A model generated the notes under the pieces. The model was not told the DNA's origin. It did not search any database and saw only the letters and a program-made list of their open reading frames with translations. From a virus, in the IMG/VR virus record IMGVR_UViG_3300020391_000019, positions 1 to 22,925 of that record: a stretch of 22,925 bases of DNA; one strand, written 5' to 3'. The translations under genes were made by a program, and so were the position numbers. Position 1 is the first letter of the stretch, and each line of letters begins with the position of its first letter. Shown one piece after another: positions 5,812 to 22,766 of the stretch.

Positions 5812-7458
5812 TTATACAGACGCTAATCCACTAACAAATACTCTTCCGTAAAATTCTGGTCTGATCATTTTCTTAGCATATCTCGTTAATAGACCTTTTC
5901 TTGGTGTGAAAGTGTCTGGATCATATACTAATGGAGTCATAATCAATGGAATGTAAGGAGCAAATACAGCACCTGTTTCTAGGAACTGATTACCTCTATA
6001 TCCCATAAGGATTGTACCTTCAGTCATATATGGGTTTTTATAAACATCATATCTGCTGTTCATTTGACCCATTTTCTGAATACCAAATGCAAATTTACCT
6101 TTTGTAGCATCACCATCAGCATTTGAAGCAAATCCTGGGATTGATTCAATTACTGTAGCAACTGAAGGAGATATCACTGCAAAATTAGCACCACCTCTAA
6201 GAGTTTTCTGGTGAATTTTGTTAGATACTTTTTGCATTTTAGTTCCTAATGTTTGGAACCATTGTCCTTGAGTATTGAAAAAATTTAAGGTTTCATATCC
6301 TGATTTGTCAGCATTTAAAGCTAAATTAGCTTCAGCATTCCAATATTCATCAGCAGCTGATGCATCTTGAATTAACATATCTAGGATCTCTAAATCAATT
6401 TCCATTGAGATGTATTCACTCATAATTGAAGTTAACTCAGCCTCAGCATCTAGTGCTTGGTAAGCATTCAAATCTTGAGCAAATTCAGGAGTCCATTGTG
6501 CTTTTAACTTTCTAGTTTTAGCAACAATTGCTTCTGATTTCATTTTTACATCAATAGAAGGGATTTCTAAAGTAGTAGCTGATTCAGCATTTGGGAATCC
6601 TGCTCCTGCAGCATCTTCAAAATCACCTCTATGATTTGGAGTTGGTTGTTGGTTATATTCTACTACCCAAGTACCAGCACTAGCTAATGCACTAACACTT
6701 GTACTATATACAAATTTAATATTTGTACCCACTGTTTCTGTAAATTGTGGAAGTAATGTAGCACCATTCAATGAACCTGAAGAACATACAAATGCTCTTG
6801 CTCCTCTGTAATCAGGTCTTGTTAATTGAGATCCTGAAATAACAACTACTGAAATATCACCAGCAGCTACAGAAGCTGATAATTCTGATATATAATCTAC
6901 ATCAGACCAATCAGCTGAACCTGATTCAACAGCATCAACAGAAGCTGAGAATTGGTTAATTGAATATCCAAATCTACCAGCACCATAAAGACCACCTGTA
7001 GGGTCACTATCTGGTCCTGGGTTAGTATCACCGTACATTGAAGCTGTGGCTCCATAAACGTCTCCAGCTGGACCGAAATTTAATTCTTTTTCTTGTCCAT
7101 ACTGAAAATCTAGGAAAAATACTAGACCTGAAGGTAAATTCATTGGTTGAACCGAAACAAATTCTTTGGCAGCAATTTGTCCAAATACTTTCCTTACCAT
7201 TGGTAAAGCAACACCTGCCCATTGTGCACCTGCACCACCCGCAGCAGCAAAACCACCTTGGTCAGTTTGAGATTGCTCAACAACAAGTTGTTTTGCTTGG
7301 TTCTCTAGAATTAATGACATGTTATTTTTATTAATCTCACTGTCAATACCTTCTAAAAGTCCTGTTTTTTCCCATTTTGACGCTAGTCTAGCAGCGTCAC
7401 TCTGCATGTTTTTCCAACCTTGTGCAGAGCTTTCTAATAGAGAATTTAATTGACTCAT
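5812..7458 (-). CDS. 23: Major capsid protein, gp23-like
   Basis: This 548-aa protein is the T4-like major head subunit, which forms the hexamers of the shell. The N-terminal 70 residues are helical and polar and would be the propeptide removed by the prohead protease; sites fitting the gp21 rule (Leu or Ile, any residue, Glu, then a cut) include LLE/G at 34-37 and ILE/N at 50-53. The family core is clear from SVQPMNLPSGLVFFLDFQYG (about residues 101-120). A Gly/Ser-rich insertion of about 150 residues follows, then the conserved KSEAIVAKTRKLKAQWTPE and the helix QDLNAYQALDAEAELTSIMS. The C-terminus has TLRGGANFAVISP and the final FTPRKGLLTRYAKKMIRPEF. T4 gp23 is 521 aa, so the size fits. It follows the scaffold gene by 24 bases and ends just before a strong terminator. 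Confidence 0.95.
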   Translation of the reverse strand: MSQLNSLLESSAQGWKNMQSDAARLASKWEKTGLLEGIDSEINKNNMSLILENQAKQLVVEQSQTDQGGFAAAGGAGAQWAGVALPMVRKVFGQIAAKEFVSVQPMNLPSGLVFFLDFQYGQEKELNFGPAGDVYGATASMYGDTNPGPDSDPTGGLYGAGRFGYSINQFSASVDAVESGSADWSDVDYISELSASVAAGDISVVVISGSQLTRPDYRGARAFVCSSGSLNGATLLPQFTETVGTNIKFVYSTSVSALASAGTWVVEYNQQPTPNHRGDFEDAAGAGFPNAESATTLEIPSIDVKMKSEAIVAKTRKLKAQWTPEFAQDLNAYQALDAEAELTSIMSEYISMEIDLEILDMLIQDASAADEYWNAEANLALNADKSGYETLNFFNTQGQWFQTLGTKMQKVSNKIHQKTLRGGANFAVISPSVATVIESIPGFASNADGDATKGKFAFGIQKMGQMNSRYDVYKNPYMTEGTILMGYRGNQFLETGAVFAPYIPLIMTPLVYDPDTFTPRKGLLTRYAKKMIRPEFYGRVFVSGLASV

Positions 7459-7482: not shown

Positions 7483-8604
7483 TTATTTTAAACCTGCCAA
7501 TTTTTGGAACCTAGCCACCATGGGATCAGTTGCAATAATTGGTTTTTTAGTTTTAAAGTTTCCTGTTGCTTTTGAGGCAGAACCTAAAGATTCTTTAATT
7601 GGTGTTTTTCTTCTTTTTAAACCTTCGTTTAAAGTTTCAAATACCAATTTAGTTTCTTTCACTGTAGTTGCTTTATCAAATGCACCTAATACTTTTACTT
7701 TTTCACTTTCAGTTAAGTTTTTAGCTTTAAAGATTTTATTTGTGTATAACAGTTTAGCATTTAACAGGTTAACTTCTTCAAGCGCTTTATCTTTTATTTC
7801 AATGCTTTCTTCTAAAGTTTTAATAGTAGCATTAGCTTCTTCTAATTCTTTAGAATACTTTTCTTTATAGACTTCAGCGATTGAGGAATCATCTTCTTCA
7901 AGTGATTCTTCAGTTGCTTCTTCAATTGTAACTTCTTCATCTAGTTCAACTTCTTCTGTTTCTTCAGTTTCCATTTCAACATCCATATCGTCTGTTTCTA
8001 CTTCTTCTGTTTCTTCAGCGTTTTCACCAGCTTCTAGTTCTCCTGAGGCAACCATGTCTGCAATAACATCTTCGATAAATCCTTTAAGGTCTTCATCAGT
8101 CATATCTTCAAGATCTAGTTCTTCTTTTTCATCATCTTCACCTTCTTCTTTGCCTTTTTCAAATTCAAATTTGTCTACATCGGCACGTTCAGCTTCAGAT
8201 TCTTCAGTAACTGTTTCTTCTTCATTAACTGAGTCTTCCTCATTTAATTCACCTTCGATTTCTTTTAAAATTTCGTCTAGGTCAAGCTCTTCATCTACCT
8301 CATCTTTCATATCCATTTTTTCTTCAATTTCATCAGATTCTTCCATTTTCTTTTTAGATTTAGATTTGGGTTCTTCAGATCTAGAATCATCAGATCTAGA
8401 ATCATCTTCTTCATATGATTTTCTTGGACCTCCTTCTTCTAAGTCTGATTCATCTAATTCCATTTCTTCTAACTTTGCAGCTAGTAGTTCTTTGAGTTGA
8501 GGTGTGAAGGCTTCCTCTAGAGCTGCTTTTGCATTTGCGATAGCTGTTTCTTTAACGGCTTTGGCATCAGCAATAGCTTCTTTGAGAATGTCTCTTTTTG
8601 CCAT
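7483..8604 (-). CDS. 22: Prohead core scaffold protein, gp22-like
   Basis: This 373-aa, extremely acidic protein is the core scaffold around which gp23 assembles; it is later degraded by gp21. It has an N-terminal amphipathic helix (residues 1-50, including AKAALEEAFTPQLKELLAAK), a long Glu/Asp-rich middle (about 50-230), a coiled coil (about 235-290) and the diagnostic segment NLLNAKLLYTNKIFKAKNL followed by KATTVKETKLVFETLNEGLK. The last residues are ARFQKLAGLK, a tail shared with the 331-aa protein at 21010-22005. Many sites fit the protease rule, for example LEE/GG, LNE/E and LNE/G, as expected for a protein that is cut to peptides. A 15-base perfect tandem repeat at 8377-8406 gives the doubled DDSRS. 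The gene stands directly upstream of gp23, as in T4. A 160-base leader with a possible promoter and hairpin precedes it. Confidence 0.92.
   Translation of the reverse strand: MAKRDILKEAIADAKAVKETAIANAKAALEEAFTPQLKELLAAKLEEMELDESDLEEGGPRKSYEEDDSRSDDSRSEEPKSKSKKKMEESDEIEEKMDMKDEVDEELDLDEILKEIEGELNEEDSVNEEETVTEESEAERADVDKFEFEKGKEEGEDDEKEELDLEDMTDEDLKGFIEDVIADMVASGELEAGENAEETEEVETDDMDVEMETEETEEVELDEEVTIEEATEESLEEDDSSIAEVYKEKYSKELEEANATIKTLEESIEIKDKALEEVNLLNAKLLYTNKIFKAKNLTESEKVKVLGAFDKATTVKETKLVFETLNEGLKRRKTPIKESLGSASKATGNFKTKKPIIATDPMVARFQKLAGLK
8377..8406 (-). repeat. 15-bp perfect tandem duplication inside the scaffold gene
   Basis: The plus strand carries AGATCTAGAATCATC twice in direct succession (8377-8391 and 8392-8406). 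It is in frame and encodes DDSRS twice in the acidic, probably disordered middle of the scaffold protein, a region that should tolerate length change. Confidence 0.9.
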
Positions 8605-8764: not shown

Positions 8765-9415
8765 TTAATTTTGAGTTTCTGGGAGTGTTGATAAGATTTG
8801 TTCAAGTGTTTTAATTTCACCTGATTCTATTTTTTCATTGGTTTCATTTCTCCAATCAATAATTACCATATTATCATCTTTACTTCCCTTTAGCAATGCT
8901 TTTTTAGTAAGTGTGTTAACCATTTCTTTTAGTTTTTCTTCATTAAGATTAACATTCTTACCAATTCTAACTAAAATATTCCTAAGCATACCTTTTATAA
9001 ATTGAAATCCTAAAATACCAGCACCAATCATTCCTATAGTTGAAAGTATTCCTTCTTCTAAATTTCTTTTAGCTAAATCCTTAATTATTTCTATTGCATC
9101 TTCATAGCTTACAAAATCTGTATCTTGGGTTGTACCTCCTGATTCATATTCTATTCCAACCCTACTATCACTAGGCCTATCATACATATTTATTGTTCCA
9201 ATTTTTTTACCTTTAGACTTATTGGGGATTGATAAACCACTTCCTTTACTTTTTATACCTAATTTTTCTTTTGCTGCTACTTTAACATTGTCAAAGTTAT
9301 ACTCAAACTCAGGTACATTTTTAAATGATGTTCCAAAAATTCCTGGGTTTGTGTTTATATCTTCTTTTAATAGCCTATTTTCAGCTAAATATTTTCTTAA
9401 ATTAAAATCTTCCAT
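8765..9415 (-). CDS. Tagged protein between protease and scaffold, likely capsid-core/internal protein
   Basis: This 216-aa protein is not one I recognise by fold. The start at 9415 is chosen over one 33 bases upstream because it gives MEDFNLRKYLAENRLLKED, a leader shared with three small proteins at the right end of the window, and because it leaves only two bases after the gp21 stop instead of overlapping that gene. LAE/N in the leader and LEE/G near residue 140 both fit the gp21 cleavage rule. The second site sits just before a hydrophobic, Gly-rich helix (ILSTIGMIGAGILGFQFIKG), which could be membrane-active or buried. The rest is polar and charged. Its place between the genes for the protease and the scaffold fits an internal head protein, by analogy with T4 core proteins gp67, gp68 and the internal proteins. 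The role is inferred. Confidence 0.7.
   Translation of the reverse strand: MEDFNLRKYLAENRLLKEDINTNPGIFGTSFKNVPEFEYNFDNVKVAAKEKLGIKSKGSGLSIPNKSKGKKIGTINMYDRPSDSRVGIEYESGGTTQDTDFVSYEDAIEIIKDLAKRNLEEGILSTIGMIGAGILGFQFIKGMLRNILVRIGKNVNLNEEKLKEMVNTLTKKALLKGSKDDNMVIIDWRNETNEKIESGEIKTLEQILSTLPETQN
9359..9415 (-). repeat. Shared leader-coding repeat, copy 1 (MEDFNLRKYLAENRLLKED)
   Basis: The first 57 bases of this gene encode the same leader as three genes at 22263-22766 and are clearly alike at DNA level too, for example the AT-rich core encoding NLRKYLAEN. It is the only copy within the head gene cluster. Confidence 0.75.
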
Positions 9416-9417
9416 AA

Positions 9418-10017
9418 TTAAAATATTGGGCAATTGCCATTTGCACATAGTATTTCTGTTACTATGCTATTTGCTTTTGCATAATGGTTAATATTATTTT
9501 CTTTTCCTTCTTTTAGTGTCATAAATGAACCTGGATTAGATGGTGTTGAAACAAAATCCCAACATAATAACTCAAAGTCATCTTGTACTTCCATTAAATC
9601 ACCTTTTTGTTCTAGTGAACCCATACCACGAGAAGATACACCTACTGTGATACCATTGTCTATTAATGCTTTTAAAATATTGCCAGATGGTGTAGGTAAT
9701 ATTTCTATTGTACCCATTATGTTTTTACCATCCCAGTTTATGTCCTTAATGTTGTGTGAAACGTTTTTTAAATTAACTACTTGAGATTCAGGGTGATCTA
9801 ATTCACCACATGCTCTATTTTGTTTAACTAGATCCATGTACTTATTTATTTCTCTTTTCCATAAGTCTTCAGAGTAATATCTACCATTACCATTTTCAAC
9901 TTCACAAGTTGCTAATATACCATGTACTAAAGGATTACCTCTTTCAGACATTTTACCTTCTGATAGTAAACCTTTAGTTGGTTTGAATAACTGAGTTTCT
10001 ATAAGTACTTGTTTCAT
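9418..10017 (-). CDS. 21: Prohead core protease, gp21-like
   Basis: This 199-aa protein is the serine protease that matures the T4-like prohead by digesting the scaffold and removing the gp23 propeptide (peptidase family S80, herpesvirus-assemblin-like fold). The expected parts are in order: NGNGRYYSEDLW (about 43-53), the histidine block ACGELDHPES (about 69-78, His75), the serine block GVSSRGMGS (about 126-134, Ser128 or Ser129) and LLCWDFVSTPSNPG (about 150-163), which carries the last acidic residue. The enzyme should also cut itself: LSE/G at residues 18-21 and LKE/G at 168-171 fit its own cleavage rule. Length is close to T4 gp21 (212 aa). It starts 12 bases after the 347-aa gene ends, with no Shine-Dalgarno sequence visible. 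Confidence 0.93.
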   Translation of the reverse strand: MKQVLIETQLFKPTKGLLSEGKMSERGNPLVHGILATCEVENGNGRYYSEDLWKREINKYMDLVKQNRACGELDHPESQVVNLKNVSHNIKDINWDGKNIMGTIEILPTPSGNILKALIDNGITVGVSSRGMGSLEQKGDLMEVQDDFELLCWDFVSTPSNPGSFMTLKEGKENNINHYAKANSIVTEILCANGNCPIF

Positions 10018-10029
10018 ATTATTTTTGTA

Positions 10030-11073
10030 TTAGAATGATGATTTTCCTCCTAACATAGCCATTCTAACTAAAGACTTTATTAGTCTTTCATCAGAATCTC
10101 TACCCACTGCATTTTGAGATTGTATAACTAAATAATCTAAAAGTGGGCCAGGACCAAATTCATATACATCATCATCATCCTTTAAGTCCCTAGCACTTTC
10201 TTCAGCTGATTGCATCTCATTGTAAGCTGTAGTTATAGATTCTAAAAATGATTTTAATATTGGTAAGGGCATTAGACTATCTAATCTTTGAAATACTTCT
10301 GGATCTATATTTTCATTAACATCATTTTCTTCTAAATTTGACTTTATGTCTTCTAATTCATCAGCTACCTTTCTTAACCTTTCAGGGGTAACCTCTTCTT
10401 CATGTAAATCAAAAAAATCTTTATAGTTAGCTGATGTAAATCCTGTACCTGTTACAATACCACCTGCTAATGAAATAGAATGTTCTTTAAGTTTACCATA
10501 CCCTGATGATTTGTGTGGACCTTTTGGTTCTTCTGTAGCTCCTAAACTTGGAGCTTCATCTGTGTAACCTAAATCTTTAACTCCAAACTGTCCGTTTTTA
10601 GTATAAAAAATAGGATCTTTGGCTAAGTTTTTATAAACAATTTCTAGTAACTCATGATCGTTTTTGCCCTCGTTTTTTGAATCTTTCAATTCACAATAAT
10701 AACCCATTTGCACCTGGCCAAAGATCATATTGTTGGGAAGATCTTTATCTTCATAGTCATAATTATGATCTTTAATTTCTTCAACTTCTTTTGATGTTTT
10801 TTTCTCTTCAGCTTTTACCTCAGCTTCAGCTAAGAATTTTTCAAAAGCATTTTCAAATCCTTCTTTTTTTCTTTCAATTGGATTCCCTACCATAGGAGTA
10901 CCAACAAAATGTTCTGAAATGATATTTTTTGATTTTAATATTGTTGATGCTTCATTAAATGTAGCATTATTTTTAATAAGGTTTGGAAATTGACGTTTTG
11001 CCTCTTTTAGGAAAACTCCTTTATGACCTTTATCTTCTTTAATTAATCTATATTGTTCTGTTAATGTTTTCAT
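10030..11073 (-). CDS. Uncharacterised structural-module protein between portal and protease
   Basis: I cannot give this 347-aa protein a function. The N-terminal 55 residues (MKTLTEQYRLIKEDKGHKGV, then a basic segment with EAKRQFPNLIKNN and an ILKSKNIISE helix) look like a small helical module of a type I have seen in other marine T4-like phages. A charged, probably flexible segment (about 75-110, many K and E) follows, then a folded part with GQVQMGYYCELKDS and Gly-rich loops, and a C-terminal helical part (about 225-345) rich in acidic residues. No membrane segment or enzyme motif is seen. It overlaps the upstream gene by one base and belongs to the portal-to-capsid operon, so a role in the head core or virion is likely but inferred. 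Confidence 0.65.
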   Translation of the reverse strand: MKTLTEQYRLIKEDKGHKGVFLKEAKRQFPNLIKNNATFNEASTILKSKNIISEHFVGTPMVGNPIERKKEGFENAFEKFLAEAEVKAEEKKTSKEVEEIKDHNYDYEDKDLPNNMIFGQVQMGYYCELKDSKNEGKNDHELLEIVYKNLAKDPIFYTKNGQFGVKDLGYTDEAPSLGATEEPKGPHKSSGYGKLKEHSISLAGGIVTGTGFTSANYKDFFDLHEEEVTPERLRKVADELEDIKSNLEENDVNENIDPEVFQRLDSLMPLPILKSFLESITTAYNEMQSAEESARDLKDDDDVYEFGPGPLLDYLVIQSQNAVGRDSDERLIKSLVRMAMLGGKSSF

Positions 11074-13215: not shown

Positions 13216-15108
13216 TTACTCTTTCAATTGGTTTTCATCTAAAAGTTTATCTTTATTCCCATCCTGTTCAAATACTAATTGTTTTTTAGTGCGTTGAGGT
13301 GATGGAACTTTTTTTAGCATATTAATAGTTTCTAAAGCTAATGGAGAATTGCCTTTAAAATTTGGCTTTAACCTACCATTATCATTATAATCATTTTTTA
13401 CTCCTTCTTTACCTAATGGATCTTTTCCAAAAGCACTATCTTGAGTATGTGATTTAGAATGTTTTTTCTTTGGTCTACCTAGTGGTTTTTTCTCATTATA
13501 CCCATATGGAATATTAGCTGGATCTGATTGTGTTCTACCTAAACCATATAATGAGGCTAAATCATGTGGTGTACCATAAGATTTACCTGTTTCTTGTGGA
13601 TCATTACCTTCAGCTTCTATTTGTGCTAATCTAAAATTACGTTTAGTATCTTGTTTAATTAAATCTCTATATTCATCATATTGGTCTTCACTAAAGTGGA
13701 ATATATTTTCATAAATCCAATCTGATGGAATTAATTTACTATCTAACATAGCTTGAGCTAATGTCATTTTTTCTGTCATTAATGCTACTCTTTCTTGATC
13801 ATATATGATTGAAGGAGTAGTCATTGATAACTCAAAATTAGTTAAATTTTCATCTTTATAACCTTGTGTATATAAATGAACTAATGCTATTTTTTGTAAT
13901 TCAGAAACTACAATTCTTTGAATTCTTTCTATTGTACGAGCAAATCTAATATCTTGTGCTGCTAATGTAGCTTTACCTTCTGTGTTTTCATCATAACCCA
14001 TAAATGCTTTAGGTACTTTAAGTGCAGCAAATAATTTATCTCTTAAATATTCTACATCAGCTATACCATCATATTGTAATCCTGGTGTGGTATCTATTTT
14101 AGTTGCTGTATCATTACCTCTAACTGGTATGTAAAAATCCTCTAACATGTTTTGCATGTTATATTTTAAATTGTACTCTCCTGTTTGTTGGTCAATATAA
14201 GGAGTACGTTTCATTTTAGAAATAGTTTTTTGCATAAAATTTTCTACTTCAGCAGGAGGAATGTTACCTACATTCATATAAAAAACTCGTTTTTCTGGTG
14301 CTCTTACTATTCTATGTATCAACATTGCATCCTCCATTAAAACATACTGTTTAAACAATTTACGTGCTGGTTCTATGTATGCTCTACCATATGGGAGGAA
14401 ATTAGTATCTGTAAGTAACCTAAAATGAGCCATTTCATAATTATCAAATACAATAGCATTACTATTTAGCTCATTAGTACTAGGTACATTGTAATAACCA
14501 TATCCTCCTGTTGATAAACCATCTGGATCAAATTTAAATTGTATATCAGCTGGATTATCTGGGTCTCCACCTTCTAATCTTTCAATATGAAATGCATTAT
14601 AAGGTATAACATTATATACACCAAATTTTTCTGCTATTTCTAATTTTAAGAAAAAATCTCCATACTTACACATATTTCTAATCCAAGGCCAAAGATTAAA
14701 TTCTATATTTAAAACATCATAAAATAAATTATATAATATTTTTTGTATATTTTCATCAGAACTCCTAATTTGAAGTACTTCTCCCATATCATTTTTAAGA
14801 GTACTTTCATCAGCTATAATATCTAAAGCAGAAGCTATAATAGCATCTGTATCCATAGAATCATATTCTGAATATAATTGAGGTCTTAAAACTTGATAGT
14901 TAAAATTACTTTGATAGCCATATAAGGATGTAGGTGATGTTGAGTATAACCTATTAAATCTATCAACTAATGAATTGTTTTCATATTCTCCTGATTGTTG
15001 AATTTTATTAATATCAACAACTCTTAATTGGTCACCACCTTGATTACGAATTATTACATCTGTTGAGAATAACCTTTTTAATCTTGAAAATAATCTTGTA
15101 TCTGCCAT
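13216..15108 (-). CDS. 20: Portal vertex protein, gp20-like
   Basis: This 630-aa protein is the T4-like portal, the dodecameric ring at one vertex that nucleates head assembly, binds the terminase and later the neck. Family features seen are the N-terminal clip/wing part with the YDSMDTDAIIASALDIIADE helix (about 80-99), the segment NLWPWIRNMCKYGDFFLKLE (about 139-158), the stretch AHFRLLTDTNFLPYGRAYIE and the conserved RIVRAPEKRVFYMNVGNIPP. Further on come the channel region around VEYLRDKLFAALKVPKAFMG and the helix ATLAAQDIRFARTIERIQRI. The C-terminal 110 residues are polar, rich in Lys, Pro and Gly, and look disordered. T4 gp20 is 524 aa, so the excess is mostly this tail. The gene follows the terminase gene by 29 bases; ATAAGGA about 11 bases upstream of the ATG is a possible ribosome site, rare in this window. 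Confidence 0.95.
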   Translation of the reverse strand: MADTRLFSRLKRLFSTDVIIRNQGGDQLRVVDINKIQQSGEYENNSLVDRFNRLYSTSPTSLYGYQSNFNYQVLRPQLYSEYDSMDTDAIIASALDIIADESTLKNDMGEVLQIRSSDENIQKILYNLFYDVLNIEFNLWPWIRNMCKYGDFFLKLEIAEKFGVYNVIPYNAFHIERLEGGDPDNPADIQFKFDPDGLSTGGYGYYNVPSTNELNSNAIVFDNYEMAHFRLLTDTNFLPYGRAYIEPARKLFKQYVLMEDAMLIHRIVRAPEKRVFYMNVGNIPPAEVENFMQKTISKMKRTPYIDQQTGEYNLKYNMQNMLEDFYIPVRGNDTATKIDTTPGLQYDGIADVEYLRDKLFAALKVPKAFMGYDENTEGKATLAAQDIRFARTIERIQRIVVSELQKIALVHLYTQGYKDENLTNFELSMTTPSIIYDQERVALMTEKMTLAQAMLDSKLIPSDWIYENIFHFSEDQYDEYRDLIKQDTKRNFRLAQIEAEGNDPQETGKSYGTPHDLASLYGLGRTQSDPANIPYGYNEKKPLGRPKKKHSKSHTQDSAFGKDPLGKEGVKNDYNDNGRLKPNFKGNSPLALETINMLKKVPSPQRTKKQLVFEQDGNKDKLLDENQLKE

Positions 15109-15128: not shown

Positions 15129-15138
15129 TTATAAATAT
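15129..15138 (-). promoter_or_regulatory. ATATTTATAA element between terminase and portal genes
   Basis: The minus strand reads ATATTTATAATAA, starting at the terminase stop codon and ending 20 bases before the portal start. Confidence 0.35.
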
Positions 15139-16712
15139 TATAGAAGCCATTTAATGTCCTCTTCCCCACCAGAATATGGATTGTTTATTTTAAAGGGATT
15201 TTTATCTACTGATGGTGTGTACGCTCCAGTGTGTGATGGTTTTGTTGATGTTATATTACTTAACATATTTTTTGTTAAATCCATCCCATGTTGTTTATAT
15301 TTAAAAGCTGTGTCTCTCATATATTGACCTATTGAAAAACTCATAACTAAATCATCATTATAACCTTGTTGTGCCTCTGGTCTTCCATTTTTCCAAATAA
15401 ATGTTCTCATTTCTTCTATTAATCTTTTACTTTGAATGGTTACTCCTTTATCAGATATTGACTCTCTAAATTTACTAACAACCATTGGTCTTGTTCTTGA
15501 TGACATTGTAAAACCTGGAGTCATTTTTGAAGTATCCATATATTGTTCAAAATATGAATCAGCTCTTACTTCTCCACTTTTAGGTGAGTAATAAAAATTA
15601 GTATAACCTCTATCTATTATTGTTTGTATTGTTGACCAACCTATACTAGCGTTTTCTACTACTAATAAAGCATTATTATATTCAGTTGCTATACCCACTA
15701 ATAAATGTCCATATTCTTTAGTTCCTAATTGTCCTTTATATTCAGCTACTTGTACATTATTTTCCACATCCATAATATGAAAAGCTGAATAATCTTTTCC
15801 ATCTCCTCTAGCAACATCAGCTACAACCATATAGGTTCTAGAATAGTCACATGGCTCCCATACCCATAAATTACGATCTGTTCCTCGTCTCTCCAAAGGT
15901 TCTTTAATATAAGTTTTTTCATAAAACTCCATATACTCAGGATAAAATACAACATCACCAGAGGTTGAAAAATCACAGTCACATTCTTGTGCTGCCATTC
16001 TAGGGTCACCTAGTAATTCATCTTGTCTATCTCTCCATTCTTGATCACGTTCTGGATGTACAAACCAAGGTAATCTAATAGGTAAAAAATCATTTTCTTT
16101 ATTTTCTGCCCTAATCCATGTTTGATGAAACCAATTTCCAGTACCATAAGGTGTAGATATAGCTATACAACCACCACCAGTTGCTAGTGTTTGTTGTGCT
16201 GAGGCCCATATTTCACCTATGTTTTCAATAAATGCTGCCTCATCTATTATTAGTAAACTAACTGCTTCTGATCTACCCGCATCTGATGCTGCTGAAGTTG
16301 CTTTGATTTGAGAACCATTTTTTAAACGTAAATTTAATTTATTATTTTCATCAGCATCTATTTTAAGCCAAGATGGTAAATTTTCATACATAAATTTTAC
16401 CTTTGTGACCATATTTTTAGCTGTATCTTGTTTTGTAGCTATACAAAGTATATTTTTATCCTTATGAAATATCATTAACCATAAACTAAAACCTGCTACT
16501 AAAGTAGAAAGACCTAATTGCCTTGCTTTTAATATCATAGCATAAGGATTATCTTGAAATAATCTTAGTACTTTTTCTTGAAATGGAAATAAATGAAATA
16601 ATATTCTGCCTCTTTGTGGATGCTGTATGTTACAATACTTTTTCATAAAATGTATTGGATCAGAAGCACATTTAAGGTATTCTTGCCTTATGACTTGTTT
16701 TATATCACTCAT
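15138..16712 (-). CDS. 17: Terminase large subunit, gp17-like (packaging ATPase and nuclease)
   Basis: This 524-aa protein is the DNA-packaging motor of a T4-like phage: it pumps DNA through the portal and cuts the concatemer. The ATPase half shows a Q-motif-like FPFQEKVLR (43-50), the Walker A variant KARQLGLST (62-70), Walker B LLIIDEAAF (153-161, with catalytic Glu158) and coupling motif STPYGTG (186-192). The RNase-H-like nuclease half shows the three acidic sites: VADVARGDG (Asp299), LVVENAS (Glu353) and GYNDDLVMS (Asp453/Asp454). It is shorter than T4 gp17 (610 aa), lacking most of the N- and C-terminal extensions. It begins immediately after the spanin-like gene stops (no spacer), unlike T4 where gp16 precedes it; no gp16-like gene is seen nearby. 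Confidence 0.96.
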   Translation of the reverse strand: MSDIKQVIRQEYLKCASDPIHFMKKYCNIQHPQRGRILFHLFPFQEKVLRLFQDNPYAMILKARQLGLSTLVAGFSLWLMIFHKDKNILCIATKQDTAKNMVTKVKFMYENLPSWLKIDADENNKLNLRLKNGSQIKATSAASDAGRSEAVSLLIIDEAAFIENIGEIWASAQQTLATGGGCIAISTPYGTGNWFHQTWIRAENKENDFLPIRLPWFVHPERDQEWRDRQDELLGDPRMAAQECDCDFSTSGDVVFYPEYMEFYEKTYIKEPLERRGTDRNLWVWEPCDYSRTYMVVADVARGDGKDYSAFHIMDVENNVQVAEYKGQLGTKEYGHLLVGIATEYNNALLVVENASIGWSTIQTIIDRGYTNFYYSPKSGEVRADSYFEQYMDTSKMTPGFTMSSRTRPMVVSKFRESISDKGVTIQSKRLIEEMRTFIWKNGRPEAQQGYNDDLVMSFSIGQYMRDTAFKYKQHGMDLTKNMLSNITSTKPSHTGAYTPSVDKNPFKINNPYSGGEEDIKWLL

Positions 16713-17467: not shown

Positions 17468-17755
17468 CTAATCCTCAGAATCATAATCTAGTTCTTGGTC
17501 AACACCTATACTAAGAGCTGCTTCCATTTCTTTTTCACTAGCTTCATCTCTTTCAGCTTCAAGTCTTTTTTTCTCAGCATTTAATTTTTTTAGCATTTCA
17601 ACAGCTTCTTTTTTAGCTGCTTCTCCTTCAGCGTTTTTATACATTTCTAAATTTTTAGCTATTTCAGCTTTAACTTTATCTAAAGTAGATGATTCCTCTG
17701 ATAGAATTGATACAATCTCCTCTTTAATTAATTGTTTTAGTTCAGACTTTTTCAT
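17468..17755 (-). CDS. Small charged helical protein with a KKSELKQLIKEEI leader
   Basis: This 95-aa protein is nearly all helix: an N-terminal MKKSELKQLIKEEIVSILSE, then a Lys/Glu/Ala-rich coiled coil (about 25-80) and an acidic tail (DQELDYDSED). I do not recognise its function. The first 20 residues are of a kind (Lys-rich helix with LIKEEI) that I have seen at the start of many small marine phage proteins. ILSE/E at residues 17-21 fits the gp21 cleavage rule, so this could be a second style of head-targeting leader, parallel to the FNLKKYLAEN leader. That is inference. The gene has an ATATTTATA element 12 bases upstream and no Shine-Dalgarno sequence. Confidence 0.6.
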   Translation of the reverse strand: MKKSELKQLIKEEIVSILSEESSTLDKVKAEIAKNLEMYKNAEGEAAKKEAVEMLKKLNAEKKRLEAERDEASEKEMEAALSIGVDQELDYDSED

Positions 17756-17767
17756 TATAATATTTTT

Positions 17768-17777
17768 ATATAAATAT
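17768..17777 (-). promoter_or_regulatory. ATATTTATAT element after the kinase gene
   Basis: The minus strand reads AATATTTATATAA here, starting at the stop codon of the kinase gene and ending 12 bases before the start at 17755. It differs from the main form in its last base only. Confidence 0.3.
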
Positions 17778-18307
17778 TAAGGATTTAGTGCCTCTCGCAC
17801 TAGTCTAACACGTTCTTCATTATTGCCTTTAATTTCAACTAAGTTTTTTATTCTATAAATGTATTTGTTCATAAAAAATTTAATTGTATGATCTATAGTT
17901 TGTCTGTATTCAGCATCTGTTTCTCTAACTCCATTATCCTCTATTTCAACTCCTTCAGGTGAAACATAAAATATATAATCATATTCATGTATTAAATCAG
18001 CTGCTAAATGAATAAAATTATCTTTTTCTAAATAATTCATTGATTTTGAACATTGAGCAAAAGCCATAACATCTAAAACTGTTCTATCTGTTATAATTTT
18101 ATCTTGCATTAACTCAGCTGATCTTTCTGATAAAAATATTGTTTGACCCTTTAGTGTAGAGTCAGTATTTAATGGAATACCTAATGACATTAAATGTTTA
18201 GAACGTTCTGTTCTAATTTTATATTCTTCAAATTCCTTAAATTTTCTTAAAATATTAACAAGTGTTGTCTTACCTACACTCATTGTACCACAAAAACCTA
18301 TCTTCAT
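17777..18307 (-). CDS. P-loop nucleoside/nucleotide kinase-like protein (AAA_28 / NadR-like)
   Basis: This 176-aa protein has a Walker A loop GTMSVGKT (residues 7-14) at the very N-terminus, a probable substrate/Walker B region with IITDRTVLDVMAF (71-83), a later strand YDYIFYVSP, and an arginine-bearing lid region RETDAEYRQTID (about 129-140). This order fits the AAA_28 family, related to the nicotinamide-riboside kinase domain of NadR, in which small-molecule phosphorylation is expected. Known phage relatives suggest a role in nucleotide or NAD metabolism, but the substrate cannot be read from sequence. It stands in a block of non-structural genes upstream of the terminase, 3 bases after the 90-aa gene, so the two are likely co-translated. 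No Shine-Dalgarno sequence is seen. Confidence 0.75.
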   Translation of the reverse strand: MKIGFCGTMSVGKTTLVNILRKFKEFEEYKIRTERSKHLMSLGIPLNTDSTLKGQTIFLSERSAELMQDKIITDRTVLDVMAFAQCSKSMNYLEKDNFIHLAADLIHEYDYIFYVSPEGVEIEDNGVRETDAEYRQTIDHTIKFFMNKYIYRIKNLVEIKGNNEERVRLVREALNP

Positions 18308-19358: not shown

Positions 19359-19368
19359 TTATAAATAT
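19359..19368 (-). promoter_or_regulatory. ATATTTATAA element upstream of the DUF6884-like gene
   Basis: The minus strand reads ATATTTATAATAAAAC, including the stop codon of the FAD-enzyme gene, and ends 10 bases before the start at 19348. Because it partly codes for the end of the upstream protein (residues YL and stop), its conservation is under two constraints. Confidence 0.3.
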
Positions 19369-20744
19369 AAGTTACTTTCTAATTGTTTATTTTTGTTTTT
19401 TATTTTAAACTTTCTATCTTTCATATAAGCATCATTCTCTATCATATTTTCAACAACATAAATTCCTTGTGATCCTGATACTGTAATACCCCTAGCTGAT
19501 AAAGCATCTCCTACAAAATGTACATTTGGATATTTTGTTAAAGATAAATTCATATAATTTACTAATGGCTCAGGTGATAGATACTTAACCTCAGGCATAT
19601 AAATTCCCCAATCATTACCTAATGTTGGAAATACTTTTTTCATATCTTCAATAAAATCTTCAATATATAAAGCATAGTCACCTAAAGCATCATATAATGA
19701 GTCCATACTATTAACTACTTCTACTTTTACATAATCACCTTCTGATGTTTTAGATGGTACTCTATTTGAGTTAGGTGAGTAAAATGTACCCTTACCATCT
19801 TTTTGTAATTTTTTAACTGCTTCTCTTGACCAATCAAATGGTTTATCTATACCTCTAATTTCCATTAGTATACCAAAATTAGTCATATCATTTCTATAAC
19901 TTGGATCTTTCTTAGCGTGACCATTGTAACTAATATCTCCATACGTGTGTTCTGCTGCTACATAAGCTGCATTGTTGTTAGTACAAAATGATCTTAATGA
20001 TACACCTTTATCTTCAAATTTTCTATATAGTTTAAAATCATATGAAATGTCTATTAGTTTTTGAAAATGATGTTGTGGTGCTTCAAATCTAACTCCCATT
20101 TGTACTGCTTTAGGTTCAGTTGGTAATTCATATTGTTCTGCTAATTGTTTACCAAAGTCAATTCCTGATTTACCAACACCAAATATTAAACGGTCATATT
20201 TTTGAGTCCAATCACCATTACCATTTAATTCTGTATAAGATAAATAATTTTCTCTAAAATTAATATTAGTTACTTTATTTTCCCAAATAAATTCTACACC
20301 ACCATCAACTAAATAATCATACCAATTTTTACCTATTTCATGTAAATAATCTGTACCAACATGCCATACAGGAAATAGTTTTAAACCAAAATATGGTTTT
20401 ATAAAATCTGGTTCTGCTTGTGGATTTGAGCATTGTACTTCTTCTGGTTTAGGATGAAAACGTTTAAAATTATTTATCACCTGATCCATTAACTCCATTG
20501 CTTTTTCTTCTCCACAATATTTTGATAATTGACCTCCTACACCTGTATGGTAAGTTAATTTACCATCTGACCATCCTCCTGCACCTAACATTCCTGTCAT
20601 TACTTCTTCAGGTAATCTGTTGTATGGGTCCTTACCCATATCTATAATTGTAATTTTACCTTGATAGTTATTATCTACTAATTTGGTTGCTGCATTAATA
20701 CCTGCTACACCTGCTCCTACAATTACTACATTATCACTTGCCAT
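19359..20744 (-). CDS. FAD-dependent oxidoreductase of COG2509 type
   Basis: This 461-aa protein is a two-dinucleotide-domain flavoprotein. The FAD Rossmann motif VVIVGAGVAGINAA lies at residues 6-19, with the ribose-binding acid in ITIIDMG. Blocks typical of the COG2509 family follow: GAGGWSDGKL (54-63), HVGTD (128-132), FGVGKSGIDF (188-197, where relatives have GHSARD), MGVRFE (216-221), SLRSFCTNNNAAYVAAE (249-265), NFGILME (289-295) and near the end FVGDALSARGITVSGSQGIY. The cysteine/proline-rich 'CMCPGG' of bacterial members is replaced by CTNNNA. It also lacks the usual N-terminal extension, starting directly at the Rossmann fold. The reaction and substrate of this family are not settled. 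A flavoenzyme amid head genes is unusual and suggests a host-derived auxiliary metabolic gene. The start overlaps the 51-aa ORF by 11 bases. Confidence 0.82.
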   Translation of the reverse strand: MASDNVVIVGAGVAGINAATKLVDNNYQGKITIIDMGKDPYNRLPEEVMTGMLGAGGWSDGKLTYHTGVGGQLSKYCGEEKAMELMDQVINNFKRFHPKPEEVQCSNPQAEPDFIKPYFGLKLFPVWHVGTDYLHEIGKNWYDYLVDGGVEFIWENKVTNINFRENYLSYTELNGNGDWTQKYDRLIFGVGKSGIDFGKQLAEQYELPTEPKAVQMGVRFEAPQHHFQKLIDISYDFKLYRKFEDKGVSLRSFCTNNNAAYVAAEHTYGDISYNGHAKKDPSYRNDMTNFGILMEIRGIDKPFDWSREAVKKLQKDGKGTFYSPNSNRVPSKTSEGDYVKVEVVNSMDSLYDALGDYALYIEDFIEDMKKVFPTLGNDWGIYMPEVKYLSPEPLVNYMNLSLTKYPNVHFVGDALSARGITVSGSQGIYVVENMIENDAYMKDRKFKIKNKNKQLESNLYL

Positions 20745-21009: not shown

Positions 21010-22005
21010 TTATATTCCAGCTAATTTTTTCCATCTAGAAACTTCTTCACTAACACTATCTTCTTCCATCATACTACGCATACTCATTTTTTCTCTACGC
21101 TTAAGTGGATTTATTTCTTCCATTTTAGTTCCATTTGGAATACCACCTGTTTGATCTTTATACCCAAGTTTTTTACCTATTTCATTTGCTTTAAATCCTT
21201 TACCATCTTGATGAGTTCCTACAAGTTTTTTTGTTTCAAAATCTACAACATTATTAATAGGAGCCTCTCCTTCATTTACTTCTTCTTCCATAGTACCATC
21301 ACTATCTTCTTCATAGTTAGGCATATATCCACCTTCTTCTATTTCTTCTCCTTCTTCTATTTCTTCTTCCATAGTATAATCAGGCTTTTTCTTTAAAAAA
21401 CTTTTTGGTTCAGCTCCTGGGTCTATATTATTCTCTTCTATTTCCTTATCTTCATCTACCATTTCAGGCATTTTTTTACCATTTTTCTTTTCATAGACTT
21501 TTTTAAGCTTTTCCTGCATTTTTCTAATTTCTTTTATCTCTTTTTGCATTTCTTTAACTGCTGATTTTGAGATAAGTTCAGATAGATTTTCATCTTCACT
21601 AACCATATTTAATCTTTGTTCCTTAGCTAAAGCCATTTCTTCTAGCTTGTTTATTTTAGCTTCCATTGCTACAATAGCTGATTGAGCATCTATTTCAGCT
21701 AGTTCCATCATATAGGATTTTTTGCTGTTTTTATTTTTACCTTCATTTAAGTTTTCTAATCGTACACCTAGTTTAGGTAATTCTTTTCTTGCTGCTTGAA
21801 CTGGATCTTCAACATCTATATCATGACCTTGTGCTTTTAATCCTCTTGCCATATCATCATAACTTAGTCCTTTATCTTTTAGAAACATATCTAAAATTGT
21901 AAAGATTTCATTTAATAAATCTTCTTTAGATTTTTTACTGTAATAATTTCTAACAGCTTGTTTAATTGTTTCTTCAGAACTTTCTTTTAAATTAAATTTT
22001 TTCAT
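21010..22005 (-). CDS. Acidic coiled-coil core-like protein sharing the scaffold's C-terminal tail
   Basis: This 331-aa protein has an N-terminal MKKFNLKESS, close to the shared FNLKKYL leader but cut short, then a helical domain (about 10-85), a coiled coil (about 100-170) and a Glu-rich middle with repeats TMEEEIEEGE and TMEEEVNEGE (about 215-255). It ends in SRWKKLAGI, matching the gp22 ending ARFQKLAGLK. Several sites fit the gp21 cut rule (Leu/Ile-x-Glu then Gly): LNE/G near 90, IEE/G twice, plus a Val variant VNE/G. High charge, coiled coil, protease sites and scaffold-like tail suggest a prohead core protein or internal protein digested at maturation. This is inference; no family is recognised. 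It is the last gene before a strong terminator. Confidence 0.65.
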   Translation of the reverse strand: MKKFNLKESSEETIKQAVRNYYSKKSKEDLLNEIFTILDMFLKDKGLSYDDMARGLKAQGHDIDVEDPVQAARKELPKLGVRLENLNEGKNKNSKKSYMMELAEIDAQSAIVAMEAKINKLEEMALAKEQRLNMVSEDENLSELISKSAVKEMQKEIKEIRKMQEKLKKVYEKKNGKKMPEMVDEDKEIEENNIDPGAEPKSFLKKKPDYTMEEEIEEGEEIEEGGYMPNYEEDSDGTMEEEVNEGEAPINNVVDFETKKLVGTHQDGKGFKANEIGKKLGYKDQTGGIPNGTKMEEINPLKRREKMSMRSMMEEDSVSEEVSRWKKLAGI

Positions 22006-22010
22006 TTTAT

Positions 22011-22319
22011 TTATATTTTTATTTCAGCTAAACCTCTTTTGCTTATTTCCTTTTTAGTAGATGGTGCTATACTATAATTTTTATGTTTTTTTGGATCATA
22101 CTTTTCCAATTCATCTACACTAACATTGCCATCTGCATCGGTTTTAACTTCACCATACTTATCATCACCCATTCTAACGATACCGACAGTTTTAAACGTT
22201 TTGTGGTAAACCACATCATCTACTTTGAACTTACCACCCTCATATTCATTTACTTCTTTTTCTTCTTCTTTTAATAACTTACCTTCAGCTAAATATTTTT
22301 TTAAATCAAAATCGTTCAT
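22011..22319 (-). CDS. Tagged small protein with SH3-like beta domain
   Basis: This 102-aa protein begins with the shared leader MNDFDLKKYLAEGKLLKEEE, in which LAE/G exactly fits the gp21 cleavage rule. After the leader comes a compact beta-rich part (about 29-75: GKFKVDDVVYHKTFKTVGIV, then YGEVKTDADGNVSVDELEKY) that resembles SH3-like or KOW-like barrels, which often bind nucleic acid or protein. A basic C-terminus follows. A head-packaged small protein released from its leader by the protease is a possible role, inferred from the leader. It ends 5 bases before the 331-aa gene starts. Confidence 0.62.
   Translation of the reverse strand: MNDFDLKKYLAEGKLLKEEEKEVNEYEGGKFKVDDVVYHKTFKTVGIVRMGDDKYGEVKTDADGNVSVDELEKYDPKKHKNYSIAPSTKKEISKRGLAEIKI
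22263..22319 (-). repeat. Shared leader-coding repeat, copy 2 (MNDFDLKKYLAEGKLLKEE)
   Basis: This copy encodes the leader with a Gly directly after LAE, the best match to the T4 prohead protease consensus among the four copies. Confidence 0.75.
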
Positions 22320-22335
22320 TTTTTTATTTTTGTTT

Positions 22336-22548
22336 TTATTTTAAATCAGCTTCTATTATTTCAATTTTGTAAGAATCTAAACCATTTTGGTAGTCGTAAG
22401 CATCATCAGAGTTTTTAAACACCATAACATCATTATCATTTATTCTTCCTCCATCAGGGTAAAAAGGGATTACTACATACACTTTAGATGAAGTTTCTTC
22501 ATTTAATTTACTTTTAGCTAGATATTTTTTTAAATTGAAATTTTCCAT
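22336..22548 (-). CDS. Tagged small protein of unknown function
   Basis: This 70-aa protein starts with MENFNLKKYLAKSKLNEE, the shared leader with Lys in place of the Glu at the predicted cut, so this copy may not be cleaved at that point; LNE/E a few residues later offers another site. The remaining 50 residues (VYVVIPFYPDGGRINDNDVM and on to an acidic end) look like one small alpha/beta fold with strand, loop, helix (NSDDAYDYQNGL) and strand. No family is recognised. It lies between two other tagged genes with short gaps. Confidence 0.6.
   Translation of the reverse strand: MENFNLKKYLAKSKLNEETSSKVYVVIPFYPDGGRINDNDVMVFKNSDDAYDYQNGLDSYKIEIIEADLK
22492..22548 (-). repeat. Shared leader-coding repeat, copy 3 (MENFNLKKYLAKSKLNEET)
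   Basis: Same leader as the neighbouring copies, but with LAK instead of LAE and shorter after the core. DNA identity with copy 4 is high over the ATTTCAATTTAAAAAAATAT core. Confidence 0.72.
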
Positions 22549-22553
22549 TTTTA

Positions 22554-22766
22554 TTACATTTCTTCCATATATTCACTAGCTTTTTCAAACAATGCCTTAA
22601 GTATATTCATCATATCTTCCATGTGATCTTTTTCACCTGCGTTAAATACTTGCTCTAAATATTCTTTCATATCTTCTTTTACAGTGTCTGTGTTCTTGTA
22701 CTTTATTTCTTCTTCTTTTACAAGCTTGTTTTCTGTTAAATATTTTTTTAAATTGAAATCTTTCAT
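22554..22766 (-). CDS. Tagged small helical protein of unknown function
   Basis: This 70-aa protein starts with MKDFNLKKYLTENKLVKEEE, where LTE/N fits the protease rule. The rest is helical and acidic, with DTVKEDMKEYLEQVFNAGEK and then a second helix (MEDMMNILKALFEKASEYME). No family is recognised. It is the first complete gene of the right-hand cluster, 9 bases after the stop of the partial gene. The upstream region is A/T-rich with no Shine-Dalgarno sequence. Confidence 0.6.
   Translation of the reverse strand: MKDFNLKKYLTENKLVKEEEIKYKNTDTVKEDMKEYLEQVFNAGEKDHMEDMMNILKALFEKASEYMEEM
22710..22766 (-). repeat. Shared leader-coding repeat, copy 4 (MKDFNLKKYLTENKLVKEE)
   Basis: Fourth copy of the leader, with LTE in place of LAE. 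After the leader the protein has no resemblance to the other tagged ones. Confidence 0.75.

Follow-up and report, generated by a model that had tools for sequence, protein, structure and literature searches.

We identified a short N-terminal leader shared by four otherwise dissimilar proteins in part of the genome of an uncultured T4-like phage, and propose that it very probably acts as a capsid-targeting sequence (CTS), loading proteins into the prohead and being cut by the gp21-type protease. Judged by its sequence features, it is best read as a new, longer, two-site class of the T4 CTS. On balance, we also favor the broader view that a general, interchangeable head-loading code (hydrophobic-x-x-hydrophobic-hydrophobic-x-E, then cleavage) is common to T4-like phages of marine and lake waters, where well over 100 mostly unknown protein families use it. 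Injected proteins, including a zeta-toxin/polynucleotide-kinase-like enzyme, would then be readable from sequence alone, with the depletion of gp21 sites in the cores as an independent check.

The window, by which we mean the whole 22.9-kb virus record analyzed here, has its main genes all on the minus strand. The four leaders are on this strand as well: MEDFNLRKYLAENRLLKE (ATG at 9415), MNDFDLKKYLAEGKLLKE (start 22319), MENFNLKKYLAKSKLNE (start 22548) and MKDFNLKKYLTENKLVKE (start 22766). A degenerate leader pattern applied to the whole window matched exactly these four starts, while a reversed control pattern gave 0 matches, which confirms the preliminary description in that the four proteins share one leader. 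With predicted gp21 sites marked by arrows, three of the copies read MEDFNLRKYLAE↓NRLLKE↓D (9362..9415), MNDFDLKKYLAE↓GKLLKE↓E (22266..22319) and MKDFNLKKYLTE↓NKLVKE↓E (22713..22766). In the remaining copy, MENFNLKKYLAKSKLNE↓E (22498..22548), the predicted inner site is gone: it has YLAK/S instead of YLAE (YLAKSKLNE), is one residue shorter and retains only the end site KLNE↓E. The consensus originally given for all four leaders fits three of them, and the 22548 copy lies outside both this consensus and the first cleavage rule because of YLAK/S and the residue it lacks.

The first tagged gene (8765..9415, minus strand, 216 aa, with a hydrophobic segment at about residues 122-140) lies between the protease (9418..10017) and scaffold (7483..8604) genes, as had been claimed. 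The listed open reading frame that begins at 9448 more plausibly uses the ATG at 9415, which gives this 216-aa protein and places its start immediately behind the stop of the protease gene. The other three tagged genes are consecutive at 22011-22766, further upstream and in the same direction as the head genes. They encode proteins of 102 aa (22011..22319), 70 aa (22336..22548) and again 70 aa (22554..22766; charged and, from its sequence, probably helical), all on the minus strand and none matching a known family. Past the leader, the cores of the four proteins each fall into a separate cluster, which upholds the earlier statement that similarity stops there. No homologues of the four cores were found among the fetched loci.

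The expected prohead protease is indeed encoded in the window (9418..10017, minus strand; Peptidase_S77, PF03420, E 5.5e-25), with an N-terminus, VLIE↓T, that resembles LLIE↓T of T4 gp21. Also on the minus strand are a gp22-like scaffold (7483..8604, assigned by position and similarity; N-terminus ILKE↓A, C-terminus RFQKLAGLK), the major capsid protein gp23 (5812..7458; PF07068, E 4.6e-73; maturation site likely at TGLLE↓G), the portal gp20 (13216..15108; PF07230, E 3.6e-69) and a terminase (15138-16712), and the window further holds several core-region genes. The gene upstream of the protease (10030..11073, minus strand), whose product is possibly a core protein, has an N-terminus, MKTLTEQYRLIKE↓D...VFLKE↓A, that obeys the cleavage rule. 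Other likely gp21 substrates in the clade follow L/I-x-E, too (scaffold LKE↓A, gp23 TGLLE↓G, gp21 LIE↓T). A coiled protein (21010..22005, minus strand; MKKFNLKES..., C-terminus RWKKLAGI) is similar, by eye, to gp077 of Flavobacterium phage immuto, which bears the full leader. Two further conserved genes of the window are found in many such phages: an FAD-type oxidoreductase-like gene (19359-20744, 51 matches in fetched loci), which belongs to a co-directional group of genes upstream of the terminase, and a gene near the terminase for a P-loop (GTMSVGKTTL) protein (17777-18307, 64 matches).

The leader extends far beyond the window. A strict DNA pattern detected at least 178 leader genes in at least 120 IMG/VR loci; together with other sources, these amounted to at least 179 distinct proteins in at least 82 unrelated core clusters. 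A looser IMG/VR pattern, in which only residues 1-10 were fixed and later residues were unselected, yielded 131 leader genes with 100 unrelated core clusters, in agreement with the idea that diverse small proteins wear the leader. Set against these 131 leaders, none of 1,625 ORFs in random IMG/VR loci (130 loci, about 1.2 Mb) carried it, and chance is ruled out. Among 84,980 cellular genomes the strict pattern had a single match, on a phage-like contig of 5.7 kb from a Candidatus Pelagibacter MAG (CAJQJC010000016.1, locus L421). Several tagged genes and a protein C-terminus reading KLAGLI are found on this contig, which appears to be phage DNA that was placed in the MAG during binning. Searches of cultured phages used short, and hence insensitive, queries: tblastn with the bare 20-aa leader gave no matches, and a 24-aa query against 50,697 records found only the T4-like Flavobacterium phage immuto, which has four leader genes. 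None of the titles and abstracts that we searched describes this leader.

Codons at L6, L10, A11 and T16 of the leader are more uniform than elsewhere in the tagged proteins. The uniformity is unusual at L6 and L10, so that some of the resemblance between leaders at the DNA level may stem from a recent spread of the module. Uniform codons at the four positions would also suit a leader that works chiefly as DNA, serving recombination or translation start and thereby shuffling cores, with a peptide of little function. We regard this as very unlikely: synonymous variation at F4, K14, N13, Y9 and E12 is at background level, the end site takes Glu but not Asp, unrelated leaders on homologous cores obey the same rule, and the cores are depleted of (L/I)xE.

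These features fit a leader that acts as a peptide, and its conservation ends at a (L/I/V/M)xE motif. This end site falls at residue 17/18 or, in leaders that hold an insert of about six residues, at 23/24, so that its position is bimodal. The end site is present in 91/100 unrelated proteins, mostly with L or I at P3, and a shuffle control reached a mean of 37.5/100 and a maximum of no more than 51. The inner YLxE occurs in 92/100 leaders, and 6 of the 8 leaders that lack it keep the end site. T4 gp21 cleaves after L/I-x-E, and Asp in place of the Glu stops processing of the T4 CTS (PMC9026906). At the leader end site, Glu outnumbers Asp by 88:3, whereas within cores (L/I/V/M)xE and xD stand at 171:264. 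The proposed gp21-type sites thus hold with regard to the L/I-x-E rule; they need extending in that YLAE is not the sole site, as a second L-x-E ends the leader. Hydrophobic L6, Y/F9 and L10 precede YLAE↓ in 4/4 window copies, the site itself being lost in the 22548 copy; in the wider sample these three residues were set by the search pattern. Conservation of the whole leader, beyond its sites, could also mean that it is a prohead targeting or docking tag only, uncut by gp21. Against this, the preference for Glu is strict, the tail of variable length ends in LxE and the cores avoid LxE, so that we consider an uncut tag highly improbable.

A cleaved leader is also consistent with what happens when leaders are exchanged, as homologous cores were found behind unrelated leaders as well. 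The P-loop kinase-like core follows MDNFNLKKYLTEGSLLKE↓, MISLVQLLKE↓, MYKLRDIILE↓ or MIRLIDLLLE↓; throughout this family the Glu column is near-invariant and the remainder of the leader is replaced. Across 12 core families, (L/I/V/M)xE was located at or before the junction in 45/45 alternative leaders (shuffle 21.8, downstream windows 13%), a set that is not fully independent, given possible relatedness among the leaders of one family. Another leader type, (M/F)QKLAG(L/I)ITE, is the same motif as the scaffold C-terminus RFQKLAGLK, and one L117 protein carries both leader types in tandem. From this repetition of the scaffold C-terminus and the stacking of both types, our analysis suggests that some leaders borrow the docking motif of the scaffold. 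More generally, (F/M/W)(Q/K)KLAG(I/L) forms the C-terminal end of the scaffold (7483-8604) and of the 21010-22005 protein, and with ITE or LNE added it is an N-terminal leader on about 10 other proteins (L174, L176, L337, L371, L396, L117). A different recurring leader, MKKSELKQLIKEEI...ILSE↓E, begins the window protein encoded at 17468..17755 (minus strand). Its form M(K/N)xSELKQLIKEEI...LxE recurs N-terminally before unrelated cores (window 17468-17755, L029, L064, L397, L125), some of which have the main leader elsewhere.

If gp21 cuts the leaders, the cores would meet it as well. Over 150 tagged cores unrelated to one another, (L/I)xE reaches 0.78 (0.66-0.90) of its expected frequency, and (L/I)xD reaches 1.24. 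The corresponding values are 1.15 and 1.15 for untagged proteins of the same loci, 1.12 and 1.19 for acidic untagged proteins, and 1.17 and 1.15 for random loci. When untagged proteins were resampled 20,000 times, no draw came down to the (L/I)xE value of the tagged cores. A separate set of untagged proteins with a short N-terminal hydrophobic-xx-hydrophobic-hydrophobic-x-E behaved like the tagged ones ((L/I)xE 0.81, 0.66-0.96; (L/I)xD 1.23), and proteins without an N-terminal (L/I/V/M)xE showed no depletion (1.15 and 1.14). Because the cores are depleted of (L/I)xE and not of (L/I)xD, the most economical view is that tagged proteins would encounter gp21 and have to survive it. The four cores of the window itself show no depletion (7 (L/I)xE vs 3 (L/I)xD), a number too small to test; the window scaffold is enriched (19 (L/I)xE vs 11.0 expected).

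These data also bear on the possibility that the tagged proteins are scaffold-like parts of the prohead core, which would be taken into the prohead only to be destroyed by gp21, leaving no surviving cargo. The cores are acidic like T4 gp22 and gp67, and the core of the protein in the slot after the protease (8765-9415) contains four (L/I)xE. As a class, however, the cores avoid the site that the window scaffold accumulates; they are extremely diverse, and some are enzyme-like. We therefore think it unlikely that degradation is their fate.

Surviving cargo of this kind would consist of small, acidic cores (median charge -7.7 per 100 aa vs -1.7). Membrane-like segments were predicted in 7/155 cores, and we dropped the idea of membrane cargo because this rate does not exceed the background of 7.2%. 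The same segments were the one hint that the tag might send proteins to another destination in the host, such as the membrane, the replication site or the host polymerase. We give hardly any credence to this, as their frequency is not above background and the leader goes together with T4-type heads and follows the gp21 rule. Almost none of the cargo could be named with Pfam, PHROGs or PADLOC. A Pfam scan of 145 tagged proteins gave few matches (Zeta_toxin/AAA, HD, DUF5872), and marginal PADLOC matches to Cas10, Cas11 and REase, the only ones to bear on a possible anti-defence role of the cargo, were set aside because they were too weak (E about 1e-4, one member each). The predicted structure of the kinase-like cargo (pLDDT 86; leader at low confidence, core confident) resembles zeta toxin and polynucleotide kinase in its modeled fold. 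A Cys-rich tagged family (CPxATQ...YGPLN...GNC; L377:5378-5815 and relatives) is possibly metal-binding and has a distant homologue in an actinomycete phage, annotated as a high-potential iron-sulfur protein; AlphaFold2 gave a pLDDT of 46 for this cargo.

The association with T4-type heads was surveyed in 49 leader contigs of at least 25 kb, mostly fragments, 24 of which were without any head marker tested. Wherever a head gene was informative, it was T4-type (25/25), which supports the claim that the portable leader is tied to such heads. The protease gp21 was present in 20/49 of these contigs. Of the 29 without it, 5 had a large terminase and all 5 of those had the T4 portal; a terminase without T4-type head genes was found in 0 of the 49. 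Among longer leader contigs, gp21 was present in 6/6 of at least 150 kb and in 10/12 of at least 100 kb. One of the two exceptions stops soon after the T4 portal and the other is without all tested head genes. Random contigs of similar size had gp21 in 5/34, three of the five being near-identical in length and match. Within the limits of fragments, this survey gave no sign that the leader is equally common in phages that lack a gp21-type protease, the outcome that was to count against the proposal. In 77 loci fetched using the protease of the window, a leader gene directly follows gp21 in 12 by motif, plus at least one close variant, mostly in the nearest relatives. The remaining loci have either no gene in this slot or different genes, some of them bearing the leaders QKLAGLITE or LKQLIKEEI.

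The closest known counterpart is the CTS of T4 IPI, IPII, IPIII and Alt, which are processed by gp21. Like the present leader, it is short, N-terminal and followed by unrelated mature parts, and a gp21-type protease is encoded in T4 and in the window alike. Both have an L/I-x-E site with L/I at P3 and E at P1, and hydrophobic residues at the T4 CTS positions tested for targeting, 4 and 7 (P7 and P4), are also found in the present leader (PMC9026906). It is length and site number that set the leader apart from the T4 CTS proper: 17-24 residues and two tandem sites, compared to about 10 residues and one site. In addition, over 100 core families stand behind the present leader, unlike the T4 CTS, and the T4 internal proteins are small and basic, whereas the present cores are small and acidic. 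There is little overall identity with T4 MKTYQEFIAE, as had been pointed out, but to call the leader unlike the T4 one in sequence was too strong, because YLAE aligns with T4 FIAE and cyanophages have intermediate forms (MKTFKQYITE↓A). A likeness of the leader (KKYLAENKL) to T4 gp22 (KEWLAENKL) was discarded because the window scaffold has no such sequence. In the giant phage SPN3US, gp53 and gp54 share identical first 15 residues (MANFVKSKLARESVE) on diverged head proteins, and propeptides of ejection proteins contain sites for a related protease, as in the present leader; SPN3US differs in its A-x-E or S-x-E rule and in propeptides that are mostly over 100 residues long (PMC5694885).

We propose the following mechanism. 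During prohead formation, the conserved hydrophobic face of the leader (F-[DN]-L-K-K-[YF]-L) would bind a partner, presumably the prohead core or shell, and thereby pull the attached protein into the prohead. The gp21-type protease would cut after the Glu of the inner L/I-x-E (YLAE↓) and at the leader end (LLKE↓, LNE↓ or LTE↓), releasing the core protein, which would remain in the head alongside the DNA and enter the host at infection. The leader would thus be a portable module whose acquisition turns very different proteins into head cargo. The head loading proposed in the preliminary description probably holds, with the depletion of gp21 sites in the cores and the MS data on related cyanophage leaders bearing on it indirectly; the second site, at the leader end, departs from that proposal. 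That most of the cargo is injected into the host appears somewhat likely to us. To our knowledge, only a few laboratory phages have had their injected proteins identified. With a signal that can be read from sequence, candidate injected proteins of uncultured viruses could be listed and tested singly, and the leaders would represent a new natural means of packaging proteins into phage heads.

Leaders of the same design are found on non-structural proteins detected in virion preparations of T4-like cyanophages. For Synechococcus phage S-CREM2, which has a published virion proteome (PMC10665884, Table 3), we inspected the N-termini of all 219 proteins encoded by the genome (OR473000). Three enzymes detected by MS begin with a T4-CTS-like leader: a SAM hydrolase (MKDFDSFLEE↓), an APH-like kinase (MKRFDAFLTE↓) and a cytidylyltransferase (MKNFSSFLTE↓A). 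The same holds for two further proteins with no known function (MKDLHSFLTE↓ and MQTFSMFFSE↓), and in an MS-detected Cas9-like protein FASFMAE↓A is located at residue 25. The strict leader form, defined post hoc after the data had been seen, is present in 5/27 MS-detected proteins (those outside the proteins that we classed as tail and head) vs 0/134 undetected ones (p about 1e-4). A general motif, fixed beforehand, gave 6/27 vs 4/134 (p 0.002). The authors of the S-CREM2 study allow that such proteins might be contaminants (PMC10665884). The T4-CTS-like leaders on MS-detected proteins argue that the SAM hydrolase, the APH-like kinase, the cytidylyltransferase and the Cas9-like protein are true head cargo. 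If so, the leader would explain the SAM hydrolase, kinase and cytidylyltransferase in cyanophage virion preparations, for which the authors did not exclude contamination.

In S-SZBM1, the sole enzyme detected by MS (PMC9146016) is a cytidylyltransferase that begins with MRFRQFIIE↓A, and a cytidylyltransferase-like NMNAT has been reported in S-SCSM1 virions (PMC9602691). The consulted portions of PMC10665884 and PMC9146016 make no mention of leaders on the S-CREM2 and S-SZBM1 proteins. In sequence, these cyanophage leaders (MKxFxxFLxE) stand between the T4 CTS and the leader described here; they have 9-10 residues and one site, whereas the present leader is longer and has two. Two other S-SZBM1 genes begin with MKSFKSFLSE↓ and MKTFKQYITE↓A, the latter being near T4 MKTYQEFIAE↓A.
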